Notes under the pieces: model-generated
What the model was told of the DNA's origin: nothing
Databases searched by the model: none
What the model saw: only the letters and a program-made list of their open reading frames with translations
Shown here: positions 10,977-30,023 of the stretch, one piece after another
Layout of the letters: each line of letters starts with the position of its first letter
Numbering within the stretch: the stretch's first letter is position 1
Assembly: GCF_008520305.1 (NCBI RefSeq)
Contig: NZ_ML703263.1
Location: 421,544-485,543, forward strand
From: Mesorhizobium sp. SARCC-RB16n
Lineage (GTDB): Bacteria; Pseudomonadota; Alphaproteobacteria; Rhizobiales; Rhizobiaceae
Direction of reading: 5' to 3'
DNA: 64,000 nt
Made by a program: the position numbers and the translations under genes

Positions 10977-12110
10977 TCAGCCTTTCGCCGTGCGCTTGGT
11001 CTTCTTGGGATCGTCGAACGGCAAGGGCTGCGCCGTCGCCTTGATGGAACCGCTCTTGTTGCGGATTTCGAGCTTGGTGTCCTTGACCGCGCAGTCGACG
11101 TCGAGCCGGGCGATGCCCATCGATTTCTGGACCAGCGGCGAATACATGGCGCAGGTCACCACGCCGACCTTTTTGCCGTCGCGATAGATCGGAGCGCCCT
11201 CGTCCGCCGGCTCCTTGCCGTCGAGCAGGACGCCGTAAATCTTGAAGCGCTCCTTGCCTTTCAGACGGTAGTGCTCCTCGGCACCGCGAAAACCGGTCTT
11301 GCCGGGGCTGACGGTGAAGTCGAGGCCGAGTTCCCACAGCGTGTCGCCGGGGCCCTCGGTCTCGAACGGATATTTCTGCGAATTGTCGTAGGGATAGAAC
11401 AAGAGGTAGCTCTCGACGCGCAGCATATCGAGCGTGGTGAAGCGGCACGGAATGATGCCGGCGCCCTTGCCCTCGTCGAGGATCCTGTCCCAGATCGTGC
11501 CGGCATCCTGGCCACGGCAGAATATCTCGTAGCCGCGCTCGCCGGTATAGCCGGTGCGCGAGATCATGACGGGGAAGCCGAACAACTGCGTCTGCGTGTG
11601 ATGGAAGTAATTGAGGTCGCGGATGCCGGGCACGTGCTTGGCGAGATAGTCGACCGCCGCCGGCCCCTGCAGCGACAAATCGTGCAGATTGTCGTCGAAG
11701 CGCAGCGATACGTCCCGGCCCATCGCCGCCCGCTGCAGTTCCTCGTGGCCGGTGCCCGAGCCGTGCACCACCATCCAGGAATTCGGCCCCATGCGGTAGA
11801 GGATGCAATCGTCGGTGAATTTTCCCGCCTCGTTCAGCATGCAGGCATAGGCCGACTTGCCGGGATAGATTTTTTCAACGTCACGCGTTGTGGCGAGGTC
11901 GATCAGGTGCGAGGCGTGCGGCCCTGTGATGTGAACCTTCTTCAGGCCGGAAACATCCATGAGCCCGGCCCTGGTGCGGATGGCGATATATTCCTCATCG
12001 GCATCCTTGTCGTAAGTCCAGGCGGTGCCCATACCGCTCCAGTCTTCGAGTTTCGACCCCAGGGCGCGATGGCGATCCGCCAGGGTTGAAAATCTCCAGG
12101 ATGCCGTCAT
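10977..12110 (-). CDS. dmmD: GcvT-like folate-dependent aminomethyltransferase, dmm operon
   Basis: Protein of 377 residues with the glycine-cleavage T-protein fold: a folate-binding core (DVSGLKKVHITGP, then LSLQGPAA), ISRTGYTGERGYEIFC around residue 190, and a C-terminal barrel with GVVTCAMYSPLVQKSMG. It probably captures the formaldehyde made by the demethylase on tetrahydrofolate. GGAGG lies eight bases before the ATG at 12110, which is why I drop 41 upstream codons. It is the first gene of dmmDABC, with a shared motif at 12226-12250 in front and a divergent operon of small membrane proteins beyond. The fold is certain; the gene letter rests on operon order. Confidence 0.82.
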   Translation of the reverse strand: MTASWRFSTLADRHRALGSKLEDWSGMGTAWTYDKDADEEYIAIRTRAGLMDVSGLKKVHITGPHASHLIDLATTRDVEKIYPGKSAYACMLNEAGKFTDDCILYRMGPNSWMVVHGSGTGHEELQRAAMGRDVSLRFDDNLHDLSLQGPAAVDYLAKHVPGIRDLNYFHHTQTQLFGFPVMISRTGYTGERGYEIFCRGQDAGTIWDRILDEGKGAGIIPCRFTTLDMLRVESYLLFYPYDNSQKYPFETEGPGDTLWELGLDFTVSPGKTGFRGAEEHYRLKGKERFKIYGVLLDGKEPADEGAPIYRDGKKVGVVTCAMYSPLVQKSMGIARLDVDCAVKDTKLEIRNKSGSIKATAQPLPFDDPKKTKRTAKG

Positions 12111-12225
12111 CCGCTCGTCCTCCGTTCGAAAATGCTGCTGTTCCCTGCTCCTTTGCCTGAGGCCGGAGCTTTGGATGGAATATTGACCGCAAACGCGGCA
12201 AGCCTGCAATCCCCTTGAAGCAAAT

Positions 12226-12331: not shown

Positions 12332-12347
12332 CTCTCTTGAAAGAGAG
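12332..12347. promoter_or_regulatory. Perfect palindrome in the leader of the small-protein/permease operon
   Basis: CTCTCTT-GA-AAGAGAG, a perfect 7-base dyad just after a TGAAAAAAATTTCA stretch and about 50 bases before the first ATG. A possible -35 (TTGACA) lies near 12290. It could be an operator or a short leader hairpin. Confidence 0.35.
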
Positions 12348-12397: not shown

Positions 12398-12685
12398 ATG
12401 TCAGACCTGCAGCAGCGCATCGAGGCGCTATATCGCTCCGACTTGCGCGGATCCGCGCTCCTGATCCTCTGCCTATGGGCGACGATCCTCTTCGTCCTCT
12501 TCATGACATGGCCCTACATCCCGCACAGCGGCATCAAAGCCGTGGTGGCGATTGCCGCCGGCGCGGTGCTGATCTTCAACACGGCTGCCATCCTGGCGAT
12601 GGTCAAGCACTACAAGGAAGACAAGGAGTTCATCTACGGGCTCGACATCAAGAACGCCGACGCGTTCCGCAACCGCGAATCCTGA
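12398..12685 (+). CDS. Small two-helix membrane protein, APC permease operon
   Basis: I do not recognise this 95-residue protein. It has a polar N-terminus (MSDLQQRIEALYRSDLRG), two hydrophobic helices at about residues 19-38 and 46-68, and a charged tail (KHYKEDKEFIYGLDIKNAD). A GAAGGGG site precedes the ATG. It is the first of four genes that run tightly together to an APC permease (11-, 32- and 14-base gaps), all in the methylamine island. Small membrane partners are known for some secondary carriers, so an accessory subunit of the permease is a reasonable guess, not a demonstrated one. Confidence 0.75.
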   Translation: MSDLQQRIEALYRSDLRGSALLILCLWATILFVLFMTWPYIPHSGIKAVVAIAAGAVLIFNTAAILAMVKHYKEDKEFIYGLDIKNADAFRNRES

Positions 12686-12695
12686 GGATAAAAGC

Positions 12696-13073
12696 ATGTC
12701 CCGTTACACGCCTCCGGAGCAGAGCAAGGCCGGCCAGGTCTTCGATATCGCCGTCGTCGTGGTCGCCATCTTCGTGGCGCTATGGCTGCCATTGAAGCTC
12801 GGCCTTGCCGGGGCGGCGAAATCCATCGACGCGCTCGACGCCAAAACCTGGGAAGCGCTTGGCCAGAACCCGACCATGGCCTCGATCTGGGAAAAGCTCG
12901 GCTACACGCCGGAGACCGCGCACGACGTCATCCAGAACCGCTTTCACTACATCATCGACTGGCCGACGCTGATCATCATGGCAGTCGTGCTGATCGGCTA
13001 TTTCGTCTTCCTTTTTCGCGCATCCGACCGCGAATATCGCGACGTCATCAACGAAAAGTTCGACGACAAATAA
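12696..13073 (+). CDS. Small two-helix membrane protein, APC permease operon
   Basis: A 125-residue protein I do not recognise. It has helices at about residues 17-38 and 88-108 separated by a ~45-residue loop (DAKTWEALGQNPTMASIWEKLG) that could form a small folded piece. The C-terminus is acidic and charged (RDVINEKFDDK). It follows the 95-residue protein by 10 bases. The even spacing and one direction suggest that it is made with its neighbours and the permease. No enzymatic motif is visible. Confidence 0.75.
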   Translation: MSRYTPPEQSKAGQVFDIAVVVVAIFVALWLPLKLGLAGAAKSIDALDAKTWEALGQNPTMASIWEKLGYTPETAHDVIQNRFHYIIDWPTLIIMAVVLIGYFVFLFRASDREYRDVINEKFDDK

Positions 13074-13105
13074 AGTCTGACGACGAAGAATTTGAGGACA
13101 CGATC

Positions 13106-13267
13106 ATGTGGGTGGCACTCTCTTACGCATGCTGGGGTATCTCGATCGTGCTCGCGCTGTGGATGCTCTACGACTGGTTCCAGGTCGACACGACCTATAC
13201 CGAGGACGTTTTGACCTCCTCGCGCGAAGGCGAACTTGAAGCCGTTTCCGAAAAACACCGGATCTAA
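13106..13267 (+). CDS. Single-helix 53-residue membrane protein, APC permease operon
   Basis: A very small gene with GAGG eight bases upstream of its ATG. One hydrophobic helix spans residues ~2-23 (ALSYACWGISIVLALW) and is followed by a polar, acidic tail of ~30 residues. It ends 14 bases before the APC permease. Its coding reading is supported by the ribosome binding site, the tight spacing and a sensible membrane topology. I cannot assign a family. It may be an accessory peptide of the permease. Confidence 0.65.
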   Translation: MWVALSYACWGISIVLALWMLYDWFQVDTTYTEDVLTSSREGELEAVSEKHRI

Positions 13268-13281
13268 GTGAGGATTGAACG

Positions 13282-14685
13282 ATGACGGTCGCGGTTGAAT
13301 CGACGGGAACGGCTGTAAATGGCGACAGGGTGTCGCTGCTCAGGGTGCTCGGCCCCGCCCATGTCTGGGCGCTCGGCGTTGGCATCGTCCTGGTCGGCGA
13401 GTTCACCGGCTGGAATTTCTCCGCCGACAAGGGCGGCACGCTGGCGGCCCTTATCGTCTGCTGGGTGGTCGGTCTGCTCTACACATCCGTCGCCATGATC
13501 GATTCCGAGGTGACGTCCACCGTTGCCGCGGCGGGCGGCCAATACGCCCAGGCCAAGCACATTGTGGGGCCGCTGATGGCCTTCAACGTCGCGCTGTTCC
13601 TGGTCTTTGCCTACACGATGCTCGAAGTGTCCGACGCCATCCTGCTTGGCGACACCATCGTCGCCAAGGCCGGAGTCGACGGGCTCACCCACAATTCCTT
13701 CATCGCCGCCACCATCGTGGTGCTGGCATGGCTCAACTATCGCGGCGTGCTGATGACGCTCAACGTCAACTTCGTCATCACCGCGATCGCCTATGTCTCG
13801 ATCGTCATCCTGTTCTTCTCGGTCAGCCCGTGGACGCAAGGCGCGGTGCTGAAGCTCAACGAGTTGGTGACGCCAGGCAATGCGCTGCCCTATGGCTGGA
13901 TCGGTGTGATCGCCGCGTTCCAGTTCGGTATCTGGTACTATCTCGGCATCGAAGGGACCACGCAGGCCGCCGAGGAAGTGCGCTCTCCAGCGCGCTCGCT
14001 GCCCTATGGCACGATGGCCGGCATGATCACGCTGCTGATCGCCGCCGCCATGACCTGGTATGTCTGCGCCTCTCTGATGCCATGGGAATATCTCGGCATC
14101 ACGCCCTATCCGCTTTGGGACGCGGGCAAGCTGACCGGCAGCCCGCTGCTCGAAAATCTCCTGTTCATCGCCACGTTGCTGGCAGCCATCGCCTCTGCCA
14201 ATGGCTGTATCAATGATGCCGCGCGCGCCTGGTTCTCGCTTGGCCGCGACCGTTATCTGCCGAGCTGGTTTTCGGCGGTGCATCCGAAATACCGCACACC
14301 CTACCGCTCGATCCTGTTCCTGCTGCCGATCGCGCTGGCCTTCGCCTTCATCGCCGATCTCAATCAGGCGATCACCTTCTCGATCCTGTCGGGCGTGCTG
14401 CAATATACTTTCATGAGCATCAACATCATGATGTTCCGCAAGAAATGGCCGCTCGGCACAATCCGCCGCGGCTACACCCACCCTTTCCATCCGCTGCCGG
14501 CGATCGTGCTGTTCTGCCTCTGCGTGGTGACCTTCTTCGCCATCTTCCTCGGCTTCGGTTCGCAACTGAGCGCCATGGTCGCCTTCTATTTCCTGATCTC
14601 CGTGTGGTTCCATTTTTACCGCTACAAATTCGTGCGACGCGGCGACCAGTTCACCATGCCGTGGCCGAAACCGCAGGGTTATTGA
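13282..14685 (+). CDS. APC-superfamily amine/amino acid permease
   Basis: Integral membrane carrier of 467 residues with about 12 helices, APC superfamily. The first helix pair (GIVLVGEFTGWNFSADKGG) and the ISSEV-like unit (MIDSEVTSTVAAAGGQYAQAK) are closest in style to ethanolamine and small-amine permeases. With the mgs-gmaS-mgd genes downstream, it probably imports methylamine, dimethylamine or another short amine, or exchanges it. It is the fourth gene of an operon that begins with three tiny membrane proteins. A perfect hairpin follows the stop. The substrate is inferred from context only. Confidence 0.8.
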   Translation: MTVAVESTGTAVNGDRVSLLRVLGPAHVWALGVGIVLVGEFTGWNFSADKGGTLAALIVCWVVGLLYTSVAMIDSEVTSTVAAAGGQYAQAKHIVGPLMAFNVALFLVFAYTMLEVSDAILLGDTIVAKAGVDGLTHNSFIAATIVVLAWLNYRGVLMTLNVNFVITAIAYVSIVILFFSVSPWTQGAVLKLNELVTPGNALPYGWIGVIAAFQFGIWYYLGIEGTTQAAEEVRSPARSLPYGTMAGMITLLIAAAMTWYVCASLMPWEYLGITPYPLWDAGKLTGSPLLENLLFIATLLAAIASANGCINDAARAWFSLGRDRYLPSWFSAVHPKYRTPYRSILFLLPIALAFAFIADLNQAITFSILSGVLQYTFMSINIMMFRKKWPLGTIRRGYTHPFHPLPAIVLFCLCVVTFFAIFLGFGSQLSAMVAFYFLISVWFHFYRYKFVRRGDQFTMPWPKPQGY

Positions 14686-14730: not shown

Positions 14731-15420
14731 ATGTCCGAGGTGACATCAGCACTGTTTGCCGGGACAATTGTCCTGGCTCTCGCCCTTCACTTTGCGTGGC
14801 TGGCACGCCGCAGCCGCGACAGGGCGTCGGCAGCACTCGTCGCCGATGAGGCCGGCATTCGCACCGTCGTCGCGGACGCGGCCAATGTCTCCGATGGCAC
14901 CGCTGGCGTCATCACCTGGGAAGGATCGTGGAACGGCCAGCGTGTCCAGCTGCGCACCATCGTCGATACGCTGGCGACGCGAAAGCTGCCAGCACGCTGG
15001 CTCAGCGTTTCGGTGACCGAGAAGGTCGCGGTACCCGCGATCTTCGACATGATGATGCGGCCCGGCTCGCCGACGACATTCTCCAACTTCGACCATCTCC
15101 AGCATACGCTGCCGAAAGCGCCCGGCTTTCCTGCCGAAGCGGTGCTGCGGACAGACCGCCGGGGCACACGTTTCCCGCAAGGCATCATCGCCGGTCATCT
15201 CGAAGCCTTTTCGGATGGCCGCGCCAAGGAGCTGTTGATCACGCCAAACGGAGTACGCATCGTGTGGCTGCTGGCGGAAGCCGAACGGGCACGCTACGGC
15301 GTGTTCCGGCAGGCGGCGTTCGGCGAGGCGCGGATTGATCCGGCGGTGATCGAACGGCTGCTCGTCTCTCTCTCGGAGCTGCGCGACGCCATCAACCATA
15401 GCGAACGGCAGGTCGCATGA
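14731..15420 (+). CDS. Membrane-anchored protein of unknown function
   Basis: A 229-residue protein with one N-terminal hydrophobic helix (residues ~6-23) and a soluble remainder with no motif I can name. It contains alternating strands (GVITWEGSWNGQRVQLRTIVDTL; LPARWLSVSVTEKV) and an amphipathic C-terminal helix (ERLLVSLSELRDAIN). I take the ATG at 14731; a TTG at 14719 is possible. It ends in an ATGA overlap with the next small membrane gene, so the two are coupled. Its position between the permease operon and mgsA suggests a link to methylamine use, perhaps at the membrane. Confidence 0.65.
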   Translation: MSEVTSALFAGTIVLALALHFAWLARRSRDRASAALVADEAGIRTVVADAANVSDGTAGVITWEGSWNGQRVQLRTIVDTLATRKLPARWLSVSVTEKVAVPAIFDMMMRPGSPTTFSNFDHLQHTLPKAPGFPAEAVLRTDRRGTRFPQGIIAGHLEAFSDGRAKELLITPNGVRIVWLLAEAERARYGVFRQAAFGEARIDPAVIERLLVSLSELRDAINHSERQVA

Positions 15421-15746
15421 GCAGTTCAAACACTTTGCCGGCACCAGTGAACCCTTATCTCGTCTTGGGCGCGGCAATCGTGCTGCCGGCAAGCGGGCAC
15501 GTCATTCTGGGTGTACCGGTGCGTGGCTTGCAGTTTCTTTTCTTCATGGTCATCCTGGCGTGGGTTACCGCCAAGATCGCGCCGCCCGACGCCAGCTTCG
15601 TCGGCCGCCATGCCGGCGGCTTCCTGATCTACGCACTGTCGATCCTCGACGCCTACAAGCTCGCCCGCATCCGCAGCGCCAAATGGGTTCACAATGTCAG
15701 GCGGGACGGTGATGATGTGCCCGGCGACATCGGGCCGCACACGTAA
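15417..15746 (+). CDS. Small membrane protein coupled to the preceding gene
   Basis: A 109-residue protein with two clear hydrophobic helices (about residues 13-30 and 36-54) and a third weak one (~67-82), ending in a basic then acidic tail. The ATG lies inside the ATGA overlap with the gene before it. I know no family for it. Together the pair may form a small membrane complex. The gene is followed by the 84-base mgsA promoter region. Confidence 0.6.
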   Translation: MSSSNTLPAPVNPYLVLGAAIVLPASGHVILGVPVRGLQFLFFMVILAWVTAKIAPPDASFVGRHAGGFLIYALSILDAYKLARIRSAKWVHNVRRDGDDVPGDIGPHT

Positions 15747-15830: not shown

Positions 15831-16727
15831 ATGTGCGGAATCGTTGGACTTTTCCTGAAGGACAAGGCGCTTGAGCCGAAGCTCGGCGCGATGCTGTCGG
15901 AGATGCTGGTATCGCTCAGCGACCGCGGCCCTGACAGCGCCGGCATCGCCATCTATGGCGCGACCGCCGGGAACGAGGCCAAGATCACCATCCAGTCGCC
16001 GAAGCCGGAACGCGATTTCCGCGGCCTGGACGCCGAACTCGCCAAGGCCCTCGGAGCGCCAGTGAGCATTGCGGTGAAATCGACACACGCGGTGATCAGG
16101 ACCACGCCCGACAAGGTCGACGCGGCGCGTGAAGCCCTCCAGTCGCTCAGGCCCGACGTCCGCGTCATGGGCGCCGGCGAAGCGGTTGAGATCTACAAGG
16201 AAGTCGGCCTGCCGGAAGCTGTCGTCGATCGCTTCGACGTGCGCAAGATGACCGGCACGCATGGCATCGGCCACACCCGCATGGCCACGGAATCGGCGGT
16301 GACGACGATGGGCGCGCATCCGTTCTCGACCGGCGCCGACCAGTGCCTGGTGCACAATGGATCGTTGTCCAACCACAACAATGTCCGCCGCGAGCTGGTG
16401 CGCGAAGGCATGAAATTCGAAACCGAGAACGATACCGAGGTCGCCGCCGCCTATCTCTCCTCGCAGATCGCGCATGGCAAGAATCTCGGCGAAGCGCTGG
16501 AAGGCACGCTGTCCGACCTCGACGGCTTCTTCACCTTCGTCGTCGGCACCAAGAACGGTTTTGGCGTGGTGCGCGATCCGATCGCCTGCAAGCCCGCAGT
16601 GATGGCCGAGACCGACCAGTATGTCGCCTTCGGCTCGGAATATCGCGCGCTCACCAAACTGCCCGGCATCGACAATGCGAGGGTCTGGGAACCGGAGCCC
16701 GCAACCGTTTATTTCTGGGAGCATTGA
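15831..16727 (+). CDS. mgsA: N-methylglutamate synthase, glutamine amidotransferase-type subunit
   Basis: Protein of 298 residues that starts MCGIVGLF, so Cys2 can act as the N-terminal nucleophile of a class II amidotransferase. It also shows HTRMATESAV and a GSLSNHNN segment, the typical glutamine-site motifs. With MgsB and MgsC it corresponds to separate pieces of glutamate synthase. N-methylglutamate synthase makes N-methylglutamate from gamma-glutamylmethylamide or methylamine and glutamate. GGGAGG is seen before the ATG. It is first in the run mgsA-mgsB-mgsC-gmaS-mgdABCD. Related GlxB-type proteins exist outside this pathway, but the full neighbour set supports Mgs. Confidence 0.9.
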   Translation: MCGIVGLFLKDKALEPKLGAMLSEMLVSLSDRGPDSAGIAIYGATAGNEAKITIQSPKPERDFRGLDAELAKALGAPVSIAVKSTHAVIRTTPDKVDAAREALQSLRPDVRVMGAGEAVEIYKEVGLPEAVVDRFDVRKMTGTHGIGHTRMATESAVTTMGAHPFSTGADQCLVHNGSLSNHNNVRRELVREGMKFETENDTEVAAAYLSSQIAHGKNLGEALEGTLSDLDGFFTFVVGTKNGFGVVRDPIACKPAVMAETDQYVAFGSEYRALTKLPGIDNARVWEPEPATVYFWEH

Positions 16728-16731
16728 GTTC

Positions 16732-17454
16732 ATGCCGGCAACCTCCAAGGCCACGCGCGAAAGCCATGCGCGCGTCTTCGACCTCGATGTGTCGTCGCTG
16801 CGCGAGCTCAACCAGGCGCTCCACAACCTGACCCCCGGTTCGAACGAGACGGCATGGGAAGTGCTCAACCCGAAAGGCAACCATTCGGTCGCCGTCGGTG
16901 TCGACCAGCCCGTCAGCATCGATGTGCGCGGCAGCGTCGGCTATTACTGCGGCGGGATGAATTCGGGCAGCACGATCACCGTGCACGGCTCGGCCGGCCC
17001 GGGCGTCGGCGAGAACATGATGTCGGGTTCCATCGTCATCAAGGGCGACGCCAGCCAGTATGCCGGCGCCACCGGCAAGGGCGGGCTGCTGGTCATCGAG
17101 GGCAATGCCTCGTCGCGTTGCGGCATCTCGATGAAGGGCATCGATATTGTCGTGCACGGCAATATCGGCCACATGTCGGCCTTCATGGCGCAGTCCGGCA
17201 ATCTGGTGGTGCTGGGCGATGCCGGCGACGCGCTGGGCGATTCCATCTATGAGGCGCGCCTCTTCGTGCGCGGCAAGGTCGACAGCCTGGGCGCCGACTG
17301 CATTGCCAAGGAAATGCGGCCCGAACATCTGGAGTTGCTGCAGGGTCTTCTTGACCGCGCCGGCCTGACCGGCGTCAAGCCGTCGGAGTTCAAGCGCTAC
17401 GGCTCGGCGCGCACGCTCTACAATTTCAATATCGACAACGCCGACGCGTATTGA
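16732..17454 (+). CDS. mgsB: N-methylglutamate synthase, GltB C-terminal-like subunit
   Basis: Protein of 240 residues made mostly of a right-handed beta-helix like the C-terminal domain of glutamate synthase. The repeated Gly-rich turns are plain: GYYCGGMNSGSTITVHG, GENMMSGSIVIKGDA, GATGKGGLLVIEGNA, SMKGIDIVVHGNIG. This domain is structural in GltB and carries ammonia-channel contacts. The ATG at 16732 follows the mgsA stop by four bases. It is followed six bases later by mgsC. Confidence 0.9.
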   Translation: MPATSKATRESHARVFDLDVSSLRELNQALHNLTPGSNETAWEVLNPKGNHSVAVGVDQPVSIDVRGSVGYYCGGMNSGSTITVHGSAGPGVGENMMSGSIVIKGDASQYAGATGKGGLLVIEGNASSRCGISMKGIDIVVHGNIGHMSAFMAQSGNLVVLGDAGDALGDSIYEARLFVRGKVDSLGADCIAKEMRPEHLELLQGLLDRAGLTGVKPSEFKRYGSARTLYNFNIDNADAY

Positions 17455-17460
17455 GGCAAG

Positions 17461-18789
17461 ATGACGTACCGCAACCCGCCGACGACGCCGCGCAAATCCG
17501 CGACCTTCGACGACTACACGCTTTCCGAAATCCGCCGCGCCGCGGCGACCGGCATCTACGATATCAGAGGGGCCGGCGCCAAGCGCAAGCTGCCGCATTT
17601 CGATGACCTTTTGTTCCTCGGCGCCTCGATCTCGCGCTATCCGCTGGAAGGTTATCGCGAGCGGTGCGACACATCCGTGGTGCTGGGATCACGCCATGCC
17701 AAGAAGCCGATCGAGCTGAAGATCCCGATCACCATTGCCGGCATGAGCTTCGGCTCGTTGTCCGGCCCGGCCAAGGAAGCGCTCGGGCGCGGCGCGACGC
17801 TTTCTGGCACTTCGACCACGACCGGCGATGGCGGCATGACCGAGGAAGAGCGCGGCCATTCCAAGCAACTGGTCTATCAGTACCTGCCGTCGCGCTATGG
17901 CATGAACCTGCGTGACCTGCGCCGCGCCGATGCCATCGAAGTGGTCGTCGGCCAGGGCGCCAAGCCCGGCGGTGGCGGAATGCTGCTCGGCCAGAAGATT
18001 TCCGACCGCGTCGCCGAAATGCGCACGCTGCCCAAAGGCATCGACCAACGCTCGGCCTCGCGCCACCCCGACTGGACCGGTCCGGATGATCTCGAGATCA
18101 AGATCCTCGAATTGCGTGAAATCACCGACTGGGAAAAACCGATCTACGTCAAGGTCGGCGGCGCCCGCCCCTACTACGATACAGCACTCGCGGTGAAGGC
18201 CGGCGCCGATGTTGTCGTCGTCGACGGCATGCAGGGCGGCACGGCAGCGACGCAGGAAGTGTTCATCGAAAATGTCGGCCAGCCGACGCTCGCCTGCATA
18301 AGGCCGGCCGTGCAGGCCCTGCAGGATCTCGGCATGCACCGCAAGGTGCAACTGATCGTCTCCGGCGGCATCCGCAACGGCGCCGATGTCGCCAAGGCGC
18401 TGGCACTCGGCGTTGACGCGGTATCGATCGGCACGGCGGCACTCGTGGCGCTCGGCGACAATGATCCCCGCTGGGAGGCGGAGTACAATGAACTCGGCAC
18501 TACGTCAGGCGCCTATGACGACTGGCATGAGGGCAAAGACCCCGCCGGCATCACCACGCAGGACCCGGAACTGATGAAGCGGGTCGACCCCGTGGCCGCC
18601 GGGCGCCGGCTGGCGAACTATTTGAAGGTGATGACGCTGGAGGCGCAGACGATCGCCCGCGCCTGCGGCAAGAACAGCCTGCACAATCTCGAACCCGAGG
18701 ACCTCGTCGCTTTGACGATCGAGGCAGCCGCCATGGCTGGCGTGCCGCTGGCCGGCACCAACTGGATACCGGGGAAGAACGGCTTCTAG
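17461..18789 (+). CDS. mgsC: N-methylglutamate synthase, FMN-binding glutamate synthase-like subunit
   Basis: Protein of 442 residues with the central TIM-barrel/FMN domain of glutamate synthase. Recognisable pieces are GMSFGSLSGPAKEALGRGA, GQGAKPGGGGMLLG, VKVGGARPY, the VDGMQGGTAAT loop and SGGIRNGADVAKALALGVDAV with its phosphate-binding glycines. It would carry the synthase chemistry. The site GAGGCAAG precedes the ATG. The usual iron-sulphur Cys cluster of large GltB is not obvious, only scattered Cys, as in the split Mgs/Glx type. Confidence 0.9.
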   Translation: MTYRNPPTTPRKSATFDDYTLSEIRRAAATGIYDIRGAGAKRKLPHFDDLLFLGASISRYPLEGYRERCDTSVVLGSRHAKKPIELKIPITIAGMSFGSLSGPAKEALGRGATLSGTSTTTGDGGMTEEERGHSKQLVYQYLPSRYGMNLRDLRRADAIEVVVGQGAKPGGGGMLLGQKISDRVAEMRTLPKGIDQRSASRHPDWTGPDDLEIKILELREITDWEKPIYVKVGGARPYYDTALAVKAGADVVVVDGMQGGTAATQEVFIENVGQPTLACIRPAVQALQDLGMHRKVQLIVSGGIRNGADVAKALALGVDAVSIGTAALVALGDNDPRWEAEYNELGTTSGAYDDWHEGKDPAGITTQDPELMKRVDPVAAGRRLANYLKVMTLEAQTIARACGKNSLHNLEPEDLVALTIEAAAMAGVPLAGTNWIPGKNGF

Positions 18790-18821
18790 AACACATCCAA
18801 AGACATAAGCGAGGAACTATA

Positions 18822-20129
18822 ATGGGGAACGATCTCGCCGCATTCGCCAAAGAGCACGGCGTCAAATATTTCATGATTTCCTACACTGACCTGTTCAGTG
18901 GCCAGCGTGCCAAGCTGGTGCCAGCGCAGGCGATATCAGACATGCAGAAGGACGGTGCCGGCTTTGCCGGATTCGCCACCTGGCTCGATCTGACGCCGGC
19001 GCATCCGGACATGCTGGCGGTGCCGGATCCGGACTCGGTCATCCAGCTGCCATGGAAACCTGAAGTCGCCTGGGTTGCCGCCACCTGCATCATGGATGAC
19101 AAGGAGGTCGACCAGGCGCCGCGCAACACGCTGAAGCGTCTGATCGCCGAGGCCGCCGCCGACGGCATGCATGTCAAGACCGGCGTCGAGGCCGAGTTCT
19201 TCCTGATCTCGCCGGACGGCAAGGCGATCTCCGACGAATACGACACGGCATCGAAGCCTTGCTACGACCAGCAAGCCGTGATGCGCCGCTACGATGTCAT
19301 CGCCGAGATCTGCGACCACATGCTGGCGCTCGGCTGGGGCGCCTACCAGAACGACCACGAGGACGCCAACGGCCAGTTCGAGATGAACTGGGCCTTCGAC
19401 GACGCGCTGCCGACCGCCGACAAGCATTCCTTCTTCAAGTTCATGGTCAAGTCGATCGCGGAAAAGCATGGGCTACGCGCCACCTTCATGCCCAAACCCT
19501 TCCAGGGCCTGACCGGCAATGGCTGCCATGCTCATATCTCAGTCTGGGACAAATCGGGCAAGACCAATGTCTTCGCCGACAATTCGATGGAGCTCGGTCT
19601 TTCTGCCAAGGGCAAGAACTTCCTCGGCGGCATCATGAAGCATGCTTCGGCGCTCGCCGCGATCACCAACCCGACGGTGAATTCCTACAAGCGCATCAAC
19701 GCGCCGCGCACCATTTCGGGCGCTACCTGGGCGCCGAACACGGTGACCTGGACCGGCAACAACCGCACCCACATGGTGCGAGTGCCTGGCCCCGGCCGCT
19801 TCGAATTGCGCCTGCCGGATGGCGCCGCCAACCCTTATCTCTTGCAGGCAGTCATCATCGCCGCCGGCCTCGACGGCATCCGCTCGAAGGCCGATCCGGG
19901 CAAGCGCTACGACATCGACATGTACCAACACGGCCACACGGTGAAGGGCGCACCGAAGCTGCCGCTCAACCTGCTCGATGCGCTGCGCGAGTTCGACAAG
20001 GACAAATCGCTTAAGGCGGCGCTGGGTGAGGAATTCTCGTCGGCATATCTAAAGCTCAAGCATCAGGAATGGAATTCCTATGCTTCGCACTTCACGCAAT
20101 GGGAGCGCGACCACACGCTGGACATCTAG
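18822..20129 (+). CDS. gmaS: Gamma-glutamylmethylamide synthetase (glutamine synthetase family)
   Basis: Protein of 435 residues of the glutamine synthetase superfamily (type III/GlnT-like). It joins methylamine to glutamate with ATP, giving gamma-glutamylmethylamide. Seen motifs are VEAEFFLIS and EDANGQFEMNW (metal/glutamate ligands), NGCHAHISVWD (ammonium/ATP loop) and TGNNRTHMVRVPGPGRFELRL (Arg and Glu ligands). True glutamine synthetases lie in a different context; here the gene sits between mgsC and mgdA, as in indirect methylamine oxidation clusters. GAGGAA precedes the ATG. Confidence 0.92.
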   Translation: MGNDLAAFAKEHGVKYFMISYTDLFSGQRAKLVPAQAISDMQKDGAGFAGFATWLDLTPAHPDMLAVPDPDSVIQLPWKPEVAWVAATCIMDDKEVDQAPRNTLKRLIAEAAADGMHVKTGVEAEFFLISPDGKAISDEYDTASKPCYDQQAVMRRYDVIAEICDHMLALGWGAYQNDHEDANGQFEMNWAFDDALPTADKHSFFKFMVKSIAEKHGLRATFMPKPFQGLTGNGCHAHISVWDKSGKTNVFADNSMELGLSAKGKNFLGGIMKHASALAAITNPTVNSYKRINAPRTISGATWAPNTVTWTGNNRTHMVRVPGPGRFELRLPDGAANPYLLQAVIIAAGLDGIRSKADPGKRYDIDMYQHGHTVKGAPKLPLNLLDALREFDKDKSLKAALGEEFSSAYLKLKHQEWNSYASHFTQWERDHTLDI

Positions 20130-28113: not shown

Positions 28114-28313
28114 GCCGTTCGCGCGCGTAAGCGTGATGTGCATGGCTTCACAAATCGCTTGACGTGAAAGCGCGCCGGATCAATCTTCACTCTTAAGAAA
28201 AAAATACGACTGAGTGGAAACACTGCGGCCGGAACAATCATTTGCCGGGGAGCAAGCTTCGCGTAGCCGAGGCATCGCTGGCGGGGAACATCGAAAAAGG
28301 GGAACTCATCGAC

Positions 28314-30023
28314 ATGAGCACGATAAGTACGGTCCTGGACCAGCCTGCCGAAAGCAAGCTGCTCAGGCATATCGACTGGCGCGGCGCCTTCTGGGTGGCG
28401 AGCGGCGTTCCGGCGCTGGTTCTGTTCTCGATCGGCGGCATTGCCGGCACGACGGGAAAGCTGGCCTTCCTGATCTGGACGGTGTCCATGATCATGGGCT
28501 TCCTGCAGTCCTTTACCTATGCCGAGATCGCCGGCCTGTTTCCGAACAAGTCTGGTGGCGCCTCGATCTACGGCGCCACGGCCTGGCTGCGCTATTCCAA
28601 GTTCATCGCGCCGCTGTCGGTGTGGTGCAACTGGTTCGCCTGGTCGCCGGTGCTGTCGCTCGGCTGTTCGATCGCCGCCGCCTACATCCTCAACGCGCTG
28701 GCGCCGGTGCCGCTGTTCACCGAAACCTCGCCCGATGTCGTCGCCTACATCGCCGCGCATGCCGGAACGAGTGCCGCCGATGCCATCACGGCGGTGACGG
28801 CCGCGGCGACGCCGGCGATCCGCAACTGGACGCTGTGGAGCCACACGCTGGGACCGGTTTCGTTCACGCTCAACGCCACCTTCTTCATCGGCGCGGTGCT
28901 GATGCTGATCATCTTCTCGATCCAGCATCGCGGCATCCTGGGCACCGCCAGCGTGCAGAAATATATCGGCCTGCTGGTCATCATCCCGATGCTGATCGTG
29001 GGCGTGGTGCCGATCTTCACCGGTCAGATCGACTGGTCGAACTTTTCGCCGCTGGTGCCGCTCGCCGCCGCTTACGCACCCGAGCCCGGATCCTGGAACA
29101 TCGCCGGCTGGACATTGGCGCTCGGCGGCATGTTCATCGCCGCGTGGTCGACCTATGGTTTTGAGACCGCCGTCTGCTACACGTCGGAATTCAAGAACCC
29201 CGGCACCGATACGTTCAAGGCGATCTTCTATTCCGGCCTGCTCTGCATGCTCCTCTTCATCCTGGTGCCCTTCACCTTCCAGGGCGTGCTGGGCCTGAAC
29301 GGCATGCTGGCGACGCCGATCGTCGATGGCTCCGGCGTGGCCGATGCGCTGGCCGGCATGGTCGGCGGCGGCAAGCTCATCCACAGTCTGCTTGTGATGC
29401 TGATGATCCTGGCGCTGGTGCTGTGCATCATGACAGCGATGGCCGGCTCCTCGCGCACGCTCTACCAGGGCTCGGTCGATGGCTGGCTGCCGCGCTATCT
29501 CAGTCACGTCAACGAGCATGGCGCGCCGACGCGGGCCATGTGGACCGACCTCTGCTTCAATCTGGTCGTGCTGGCCATCGCCTCGGCCGACGCGACGAGC
29601 TTCTTCTTCATCCTCGCCGTGTCGAACTGCGGCTACATCATCTTCAACTTCCTCAACCTCAATGCCGGCTGGATCCACCGCATCGACAACGGTCATATCG
29701 TACGGCCATGGAAAGCGCCGAGCTGGCTCTTGGGGATCGGGGCGATCTTCGCCTATGTCAACGCCATCTTCATGGGCGCAGGCGCCAAGGTGTGGAACCC
29801 GATGGCGCTGTGGGCGGGGCTGATCACGGCCGCGCTGATCATCCCGGTGTTCTGCTTCCGCCACTATATCCAGGACAAGGGCAAATTCCCCGATCATATG
29901 CTGGCCGACCTCGGCATGGCGGGAGCCGACCTTTCGGTCAAAAAGGCGGGCATGCTGCCCTATCTGACGCTGGTCGCCGGCGTGGCGGTCATGCTCATCG
30001 CCAATTGGGTATTCGTCATCTGA
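28314..30023 (+). CDS. APC-superfamily permease at the end of the methylated-amine island
   Basis: Integral membrane carrier of 569 residues with about 12-14 helices. Helix 1 has the APC GIAG-like turn (LFSIGGIAGTTGKL) and the next loop reads FPNKSGGASIYGATAWLRY, typical of amino acid/amine exchangers. It is separated from tdm by a terminator and a 200-base leader, so it has its own promoter; AAGGGGA precedes the ATG at 28314. Context suggests uptake or exchange of TMA, dimethylamine, methylamine or a methylated amino compound, but nothing in the sequence fixes the substrate. It differs clearly from the 467-residue permease at 13282. Confidence 0.78.
   Translation: MSTISTVLDQPAESKLLRHIDWRGAFWVASGVPALVLFSIGGIAGTTGKLAFLIWTVSMIMGFLQSFTYAEIAGLFPNKSGGASIYGATAWLRYSKFIAPLSVWCNWFAWSPVLSLGCSIAAAYILNALAPVPLFTETSPDVVAYIAAHAGTSAADAITAVTAAATPAIRNWTLWSHTLGPVSFTLNATFFIGAVLMLIIFSIQHRGILGTASVQKYIGLLVIIPMLIVGVVPIFTGQIDWSNFSPLVPLAAAYAPEPGSWNIAGWTLALGGMFIAAWSTYGFETAVCYTSEFKNPGTDTFKAIFYSGLLCMLLFILVPFTFQGVLGLNGMLATPIVDGSGVADALAGMVGGGKLIHSLLVMLMILALVLCIMTAMAGSSRTLYQGSVDGWLPRYLSHVNEHGAPTRAMWTDLCFNLVVLAIASADATSFFFILAVSNCGYIIFNFLNLNAGWIHRIDNGHIVRPWKAPSWLLGIGAIFAYVNAIFMGAGAKVWNPMALWAGLITAALIIPVFCFRHYIQDKGKFPDHMLADLGMAGADLSVKKAGMLPYLTLVAGVAVMLIANWVFVI

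Follow-up and report, generated by a model that had tools for sequence, protein, structure and literature searches.

Several described transport systems resemble parts of the locus reported here, a six-gene cassette (A-B-C-P-D-E) built around a permease of the APC superfamily, P, in a 64,000-nucleotide stretch of DNA from Mesorhizobium sp. SARCC-RB16n (the whole stretch is called the window below). The initial annotation of this DNA held that APC carriers normally act alone, a generalisation that has exceptions in the SLC7-SLC3 pairs of animals and in GkApcT-MgtS, each of which joins an APC carrier to a helix-bearing partner, SLC3 being a glycoprotein, according to the accessible part of PMC5803215. 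Both have a single partner, compared with five in the cassette, and MgtS is a host protein that accompanies an overexpressed foreign carrier, unlike the cassette partners. The SLC3 heavy chain combines a single helix with a large glycosidase-like domain outside the cell, whereas the soluble domain of D is predicted from its charge to be cytosolic. This heavy-chain comparison was judged by Pfam, in which A-E of the window match no family over its cut-off, and by charge alone.

Among bacterial systems, P shares with the ethanolamine permease Eat (TIGR00908) the APC fold and an amine-type helix-1 motif, and Eat is its best NCBIfam match. P differs from Eat in scoring under the cut-off, in being 24-30% identical to its nearest outside relatives, which are mostly annotated as ethanolamine permeases, and in having five partner genes; at three eat genes no small gene was annotated within the match plus 300 bases. 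The trimethylamine N-oxide (TMAO) permease TmoP (NF053774) likewise belongs to the APC carriers and occurs in the same islands of methylated-amine genes, but it has its own gene in the window and in loci L165, L127, L167 and L181, and its model was absent among the 15 family matches of P at E up to 1. D is predicted to share its fold with TtfA, an accessory protein of the MmpL3 transporter, at 10% identity and with no profile match, and MmpL3 belongs to a different transporter class. Finally, an Amt homologue linked to gmaS, together with a single-helix partner, takes the place of the cassette in related islands, but it belongs to another carrier family (PF00909) and has just one small partner.

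Bacteria commonly use methylamine as a source of nitrogen and carbon. In the accessible portions of the literature, no methylamine importer is named for the bacteria that bear the cassette. The results below lead to the conclusion that A-B-C-P-D-E is a single cassette, and that P is a carrier clade exclusive to it in the samples searched. From the sequence comparisons we propose, with a probability of roughly 0.6, that the cassette encodes a multi-subunit secondary-active importer of methylammonium.

A six-gene cassette with its own permease clade

The cassette genes of the window are as follows.

12398..12685, + strand: A, a 95-residue two-helix membrane protein of no known family, 36-71% identical to 13 homologues
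12696..13073, + strand: B, 125 residues, two helices with an intervening loop of ~55 residues
13106..13267, + strand: C, 53 residues, a single helix and then a conserved tail (LTSSREGELE in the window)
13282..14685, + strand: P, the APC permease, 467 residues, over cut-off for PF00324 and PF13520
14731..15420, + strand: D, 229 residues, an N-terminal helix and then a soluble domain, predicted to be cytosolic, with a TtfA-like fold
15417..15746, + strand: E, a 109-residue membrane protein, weakly DUF6677/DUF5683-like

The initial annotation described proteins of 95, 125 and 53 residues with two, two and one helices directly before an APC permease in a methylamine island, and open reading frames, hydropathy and neighbour matches all agree with that description. 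It counted three small partners, a number that must be raised to five since D and E also belong to the unit; D starts 45 bases past the stop of P, and E overlaps D by 4 bases. P is placed in the APC superfamily by PF00324 (105.4 bits, cut-off 24.6) and PF13520 (96.7 bits, cut-off 27), and its match to TIGR00908, at 171.7 bits, lies below the equivalog cut-off of 381.75.

The gene neighbourhood, which the initial annotation had suggested looking for in other genomes, recurs widely. Profiles of the six proteins were used to scan 168 loci (80 found via the permease, 87 via B, plus the window), and all six genes were present in one order and on one strand in 149 of them. Counts over these 168 loci carry less weight than those from a sample of 297 genomes of the family and from 47 representatives whose P proteins are under 93% identical, since the 80 permease-derived loci come mostly from Mesorhizobium and some stretches are present in duplicate; 22 short loci (L101-L122) lay outside the scan. 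Partial loci comprised 13 with A-B-C-P, one with A-B, one with A-B-C-P-D and three with B-C-P-D-E, and in all 18 the stretch or contig ends before the absent genes would be reached. The only lone B, that of L090, stands in the middle of 18 kb. Of the 164 loci having A, 163 also have B, C and P, the exception being L097 at a contig end, and the association of these genes is therefore not due to chance. Median gaps were 11 bases for A-B, 16 for B-C and 12 for C-P, and D and E overlap in 120/152 loci. This conservation of the cassette is real and strong.

The genome samples give the same picture. B was found in 38 of the 297 family genomes. P matches were found in 65, and those at 66% identity or more occurred in 38 genomes, identical to the 38 with B; all other P matches in this sample were at 30% identity or less. 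The P clade, which is 61-98% identical within itself and 30% or less identical to outside permeases, never occurred without B in these genomes. Similarly, in a plasmid collection B was found in 22 records and P matches in 88; the P matches at 65% identity or more coincided with those 22 records, and the rest were at 30% or less among the 60 matches listed. A D profile matched 10/10 cassette genomes and 0/44 cassette-free genomes with gmaS. B and D were thus not seen apart from the permease in these samples, an arrangement of the small genes that the initial annotation had regarded as contrary to its proposal: B was accompanied by P in all 38 family genomes, a lone B being seen elsewhere, in L090, and D gave the same result in its smaller set. 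The distribution of the cassette is patchy (54/101 relatives, 38/297 in the family, 6/385 in the class and 14/398 in the phylum sample).

A candidate C-P fusion in Sinorhizobium meliloti (L128, 12392-13963) was dropped, as a single base differs from a relative in which C and P are separate. The shared frame of L128 is possibly a sequencing error, and close relatives keep the genes apart.

The five small proteins

No match over Pfam or NCBIfam cut-offs was obtained for A, B, C, D or E of the window, which agrees with the earlier statement that none of A, B and C resembled a familiar family, and annotated plasmid records label A-E as hypothetical or leave them unmarked. Within the accessible portions of the open-licence literature, including PMC4543880, PMC9800807, PMC8292978, PMC13390433, PMC5520151, PMC5023235 and PMC8235418, no account of these small genes was found. 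The number of helices assigned by hydropathy in the window (two in A, two in B, one in C) was the same in 47/47 non-redundant loci for A, 47/47 for B and 44/47 for C, window included; of the three deviating C genes, two have no scored helix and one, in L128, is an over-long reading frame. The C tail was considered as an invariant feature on the basis of 13 sequences, and this was given up, as the pattern LxSSREGxxE is present in just 31/47 non-redundant loci.

For A, B, C and E, sequence searches of the PDB yielded no usable match. Structure models were made for single chains. The model of D (pLDDT, the predicted local distance difference test, 94) has the fold of TtfA and a translocon chain over most of the domain, with 7-10% identity in structure alignments, and the lone match to its profile up to E 5 was a minibinder (0.33). 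For B, the model reached a pLDDT of 81.6 and a predicted template modelling score (pTM) of 0.44 with no PDB match at E 0.001, and was therefore used for no claim. B scored 16.4 bits against FixQ/CcoQ (PF05545), below the gathering score of 29, and FixQ matches were found in 7/47 B members (best E 0.0008). The lone B gene (L090:9929-10336) is 43% identical to window B, and its neighbours encode cytochrome c, a multihaem protein, a di-haem peroxidase (CCP_MauG) and cytochrome b561. In the E family, DUF6677 was matched by 20/27 members and DUF5683 by 10/27 at E up to 0.1 (best 1.8e-5 and 4.9e-5); window E scored 11.7 bits against DUF6677, under the cut-off of 24.3.

Linkage to the N-methylglutamate pathway

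The window is part of a trimethylamine-dimethylamine-methylamine island of a Mesorhizobium-like genome, in which Tmm, an aminomethyltransferase-like gene, mgsABC, gmaS, mgdA, Tdm and TmoP are found. The genes that bear on the cassette are these.

10980..12113, - strand: aminomethyltransferase-like gene flanking the cassette, GcvT/Tdm-like, under cut-offs
15831..20129, + strand: N-methylglutamate pathway genes mgsABC and gmaS, immediately downstream of the cassette
28302..30023, + strand: TmoP, the TMAO permease and second APC permease of the island (NF053774, 893 bits, cut-off 690)

The Tmm, Tdm and TmoP proteins of the window score over their NCBIfam cut-offs, mgdA is over the cut-off of the sarcosine oxidase beta model, and the window gmaS matches the type III glutamate-ammonia ligase model at 675.6 bits (cut-off 469.6). 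The mgsABC names are presumed from gene order, as are the island names lacking a match over cut-off.

With presence of gmaS set at E 1e-120, the gene was found in 37 of the 38 cassette-bearing family genomes, compared with 59 of the 259 without the cassette. In a further set of 41 genomes, 39 have the cassette (G1072 again among them, and G065 with A and B only) and 33 of these 39 have gmaS; of the two cassette-free genomes, G1128 has gmaS and G1118 does not. Across both sets gmaS is present in 70/76 cassette genomes. These results make a strong case for functional linkage of the cassette to the N-methylglutamate pathway.

The Amt homologues (PF00909) provide a second line of evidence. Amt genes were located in 80 genomes with gmaS, and a divergent Amt lay at most 6 kb from gmaS in 8 of the 46 cassette-free genomes and in 0 of the 34 cassette-bearing ones. 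In L196, L209 and L214 the Amt gene has the aminomethyltransferase gene on one side and mgsA on the other; in the window, and also in L148, which is of the same genus as L196, this slot holds the cassette. In the accessible part of PMC8292978, a gmas-mgsABC-amt operon is described whose final gene is termed the methylamine transporter. Taken together, we infer that the substrate of the cassette is methylammonium and that transport is inward, and a role as a methylamine importer is likely. The earlier proposal of an undescribed multi-subunit amine importer gains from this methylamine link, by gmaS and by the Amt in the same slot, and needs amending in its number of accessory proteins, which may be subunits, regulators or assembly factors.

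The divergent Amt genes (L196:13715-15437; L209-L217; 8/10 near gmaS) are directly followed by a small single-helix gene, of 56-72 residues in five, and appear to be a second methylammonium-type carrier with a small partner. In L218-L221, where Amt lies away from gmaS, a gene of 57-63 residues resembles those of L210 and L212.

Proposed transport, alternatives and possible regulation

In the importer that we propose, P would be the carrier, with an amine-type APC fold akin to that of ethanolamine permeases, and methylammonium would enter through it, driven by protons or sodium. A, B, C and E would be small integral-membrane partners packed against P, and D a membrane-anchored cytosolic accessory below P that meets its conserved C-terminal tail and may control how P is assembled or opened. 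Free methylamine can leak back across membranes, and the partners are therefore proposed to keep P shut except when GmaS is able to capture the substrate as gamma-glutamylmethylamide. That a transporter type usually thought solitary is repeatedly encoded with the same five small proteins suggests a multi-part machine, and a physical complex of six parts is plausible. We offer more tentatively, as a possibility that we rate well below even, an obligate six-part APC transporter in which the five small proteins, one of them TtfA-like and cytosolic, would gate methylammonium entry to trapping, with a universal stress protein (Usp) as an extra cytosolic input in some lineages. If the importer is real, the cassette-bearing bacteria would have a named methylamine importer, five protein families would gain functions, and the APC fold, as in human SLC7 carriers, would be accessible with several small partners in a laboratory bacterium.

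Several observations weigh against this reading. The family sample includes the 59 genomes with gmaS and no cassette, and gmaS was not found at the above threshold in cassette genomes G1072, G065, G1123, G172, G756 and G1116. In G1072 mgsA adjoins the cassette on a 4-kb contig; G1123 and G172 are 68% and 82% complete; MgdA/MgdC-like and glutamine synthetase (GS)-like genes with lower scores adjoin the cassette in G756 and G1116; and only A and B are visible in G065, at a contig end. Furthermore, mgs or gmaS lies within the fetched stretch in just 19 of 46 non-redundant cassettes, and the others adjoin TmoP or homogentisate genes or stand elsewhere. In L089, L167 and L177 a cassette has an Amt-like gene nearby (that of L167 was checked), and L090 has its lone B among cytochrome genes. 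In distance matrices from 18 loci, 15 within-cassette pairs correlate at 0.71-0.88, compared with 0.59-0.89 for 12 pairs that include GmaS or MgsC. P distances correlate with those of B at 0.86 and C at 0.88, against 0.78 for GmaS and 0.80 for MgsC, but C tracks GmaS (0.89) as closely as P (0.88), and the distance correlations therefore do not prove contact.

The small proteins might instead be assembly or stability factors that serve just to insert and fold P, itself a lone carrier. We consider this unlikely, since a pure assembly factor need not keep a fixed order with one carrier clade as seen in the 149 complete loci, and since a profile scan with the six cassette proteins found no second A-E-type set for TmoP in the window. 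Somewhat less likely again is that the cassette transports a different amine (dimethylamine, trimethylamine or one belonging to another pathway) or exports rather than imports. The ethanolamine permeases among the outside relatives of P point this way, as do cassettes that adjoin TmoP, dmm and tmm genes or homogentisate genes; a TmoP-like gene is near 8/27 cassettes without mgs/gmaS, in 6 cases on the same strand and 50-1488 bases downstream, and four such genes (L165, L127, L167 and L181, the last not among the 27) score over the TmoP cut-off. However, gmaS, which acts at the methylamine step, is present in nearly all cassette genomes, TMAO is served by its own permease in the window, and dmm and tmm occur in only 4 and 4 of the 46 non-redundant loci, a weak absence given stretches of at most ~24 kb.

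It is improbable that the cassette is a sensor (transceptor) reporting amine availability rather than a bulk importer. Among the 27 loci without mgs/gmaS, a response-regulator cluster is represented within 7 kb in 6 and a sensor-kinase cluster in 4 (one member of each was identified), but the response-regulator cluster was not seen in the other 21/27, and elsewhere an Amt homologue fills the slot of the cassette. Coupling of the carrier to the respiratory chain, with B as a relative of an oxidase subunit, seems most improbable of all: the FixQ matches and the surroundings of the lone B would fit, but window B falls well short of the FixQ score and has no PDB relative by profile or fold.

With respect to regulation of the proposed importer, a Usp gene fills the gap between P and D in 8 of the 10 loci in which this gap exceeds 250 bases (L089, L163, L164, L165, L166, L180, L181 and L182), and one reading frame spans permease and Usp domain in L184:10040-11872 and L185:9935-11767, arrangements that may point to regulation acting on the C-terminal end of P. 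One further feature lies upstream of A.

12332..12347, no strand: 16-base palindrome CTCTCTTGAAAGAGAG, a possible operator

An operator role is a guess, and the core word CTTGAAAGAG occurs in just 42/161 stretches upstream of A. Some cassettes also have nearby genes whose products are a hybrid sensor kinase resembling NahK/ErcS (380 bits against a cut-off of 400) and a response regulator of the LuxR type (L165:10220-11923; L167:5151-6008).
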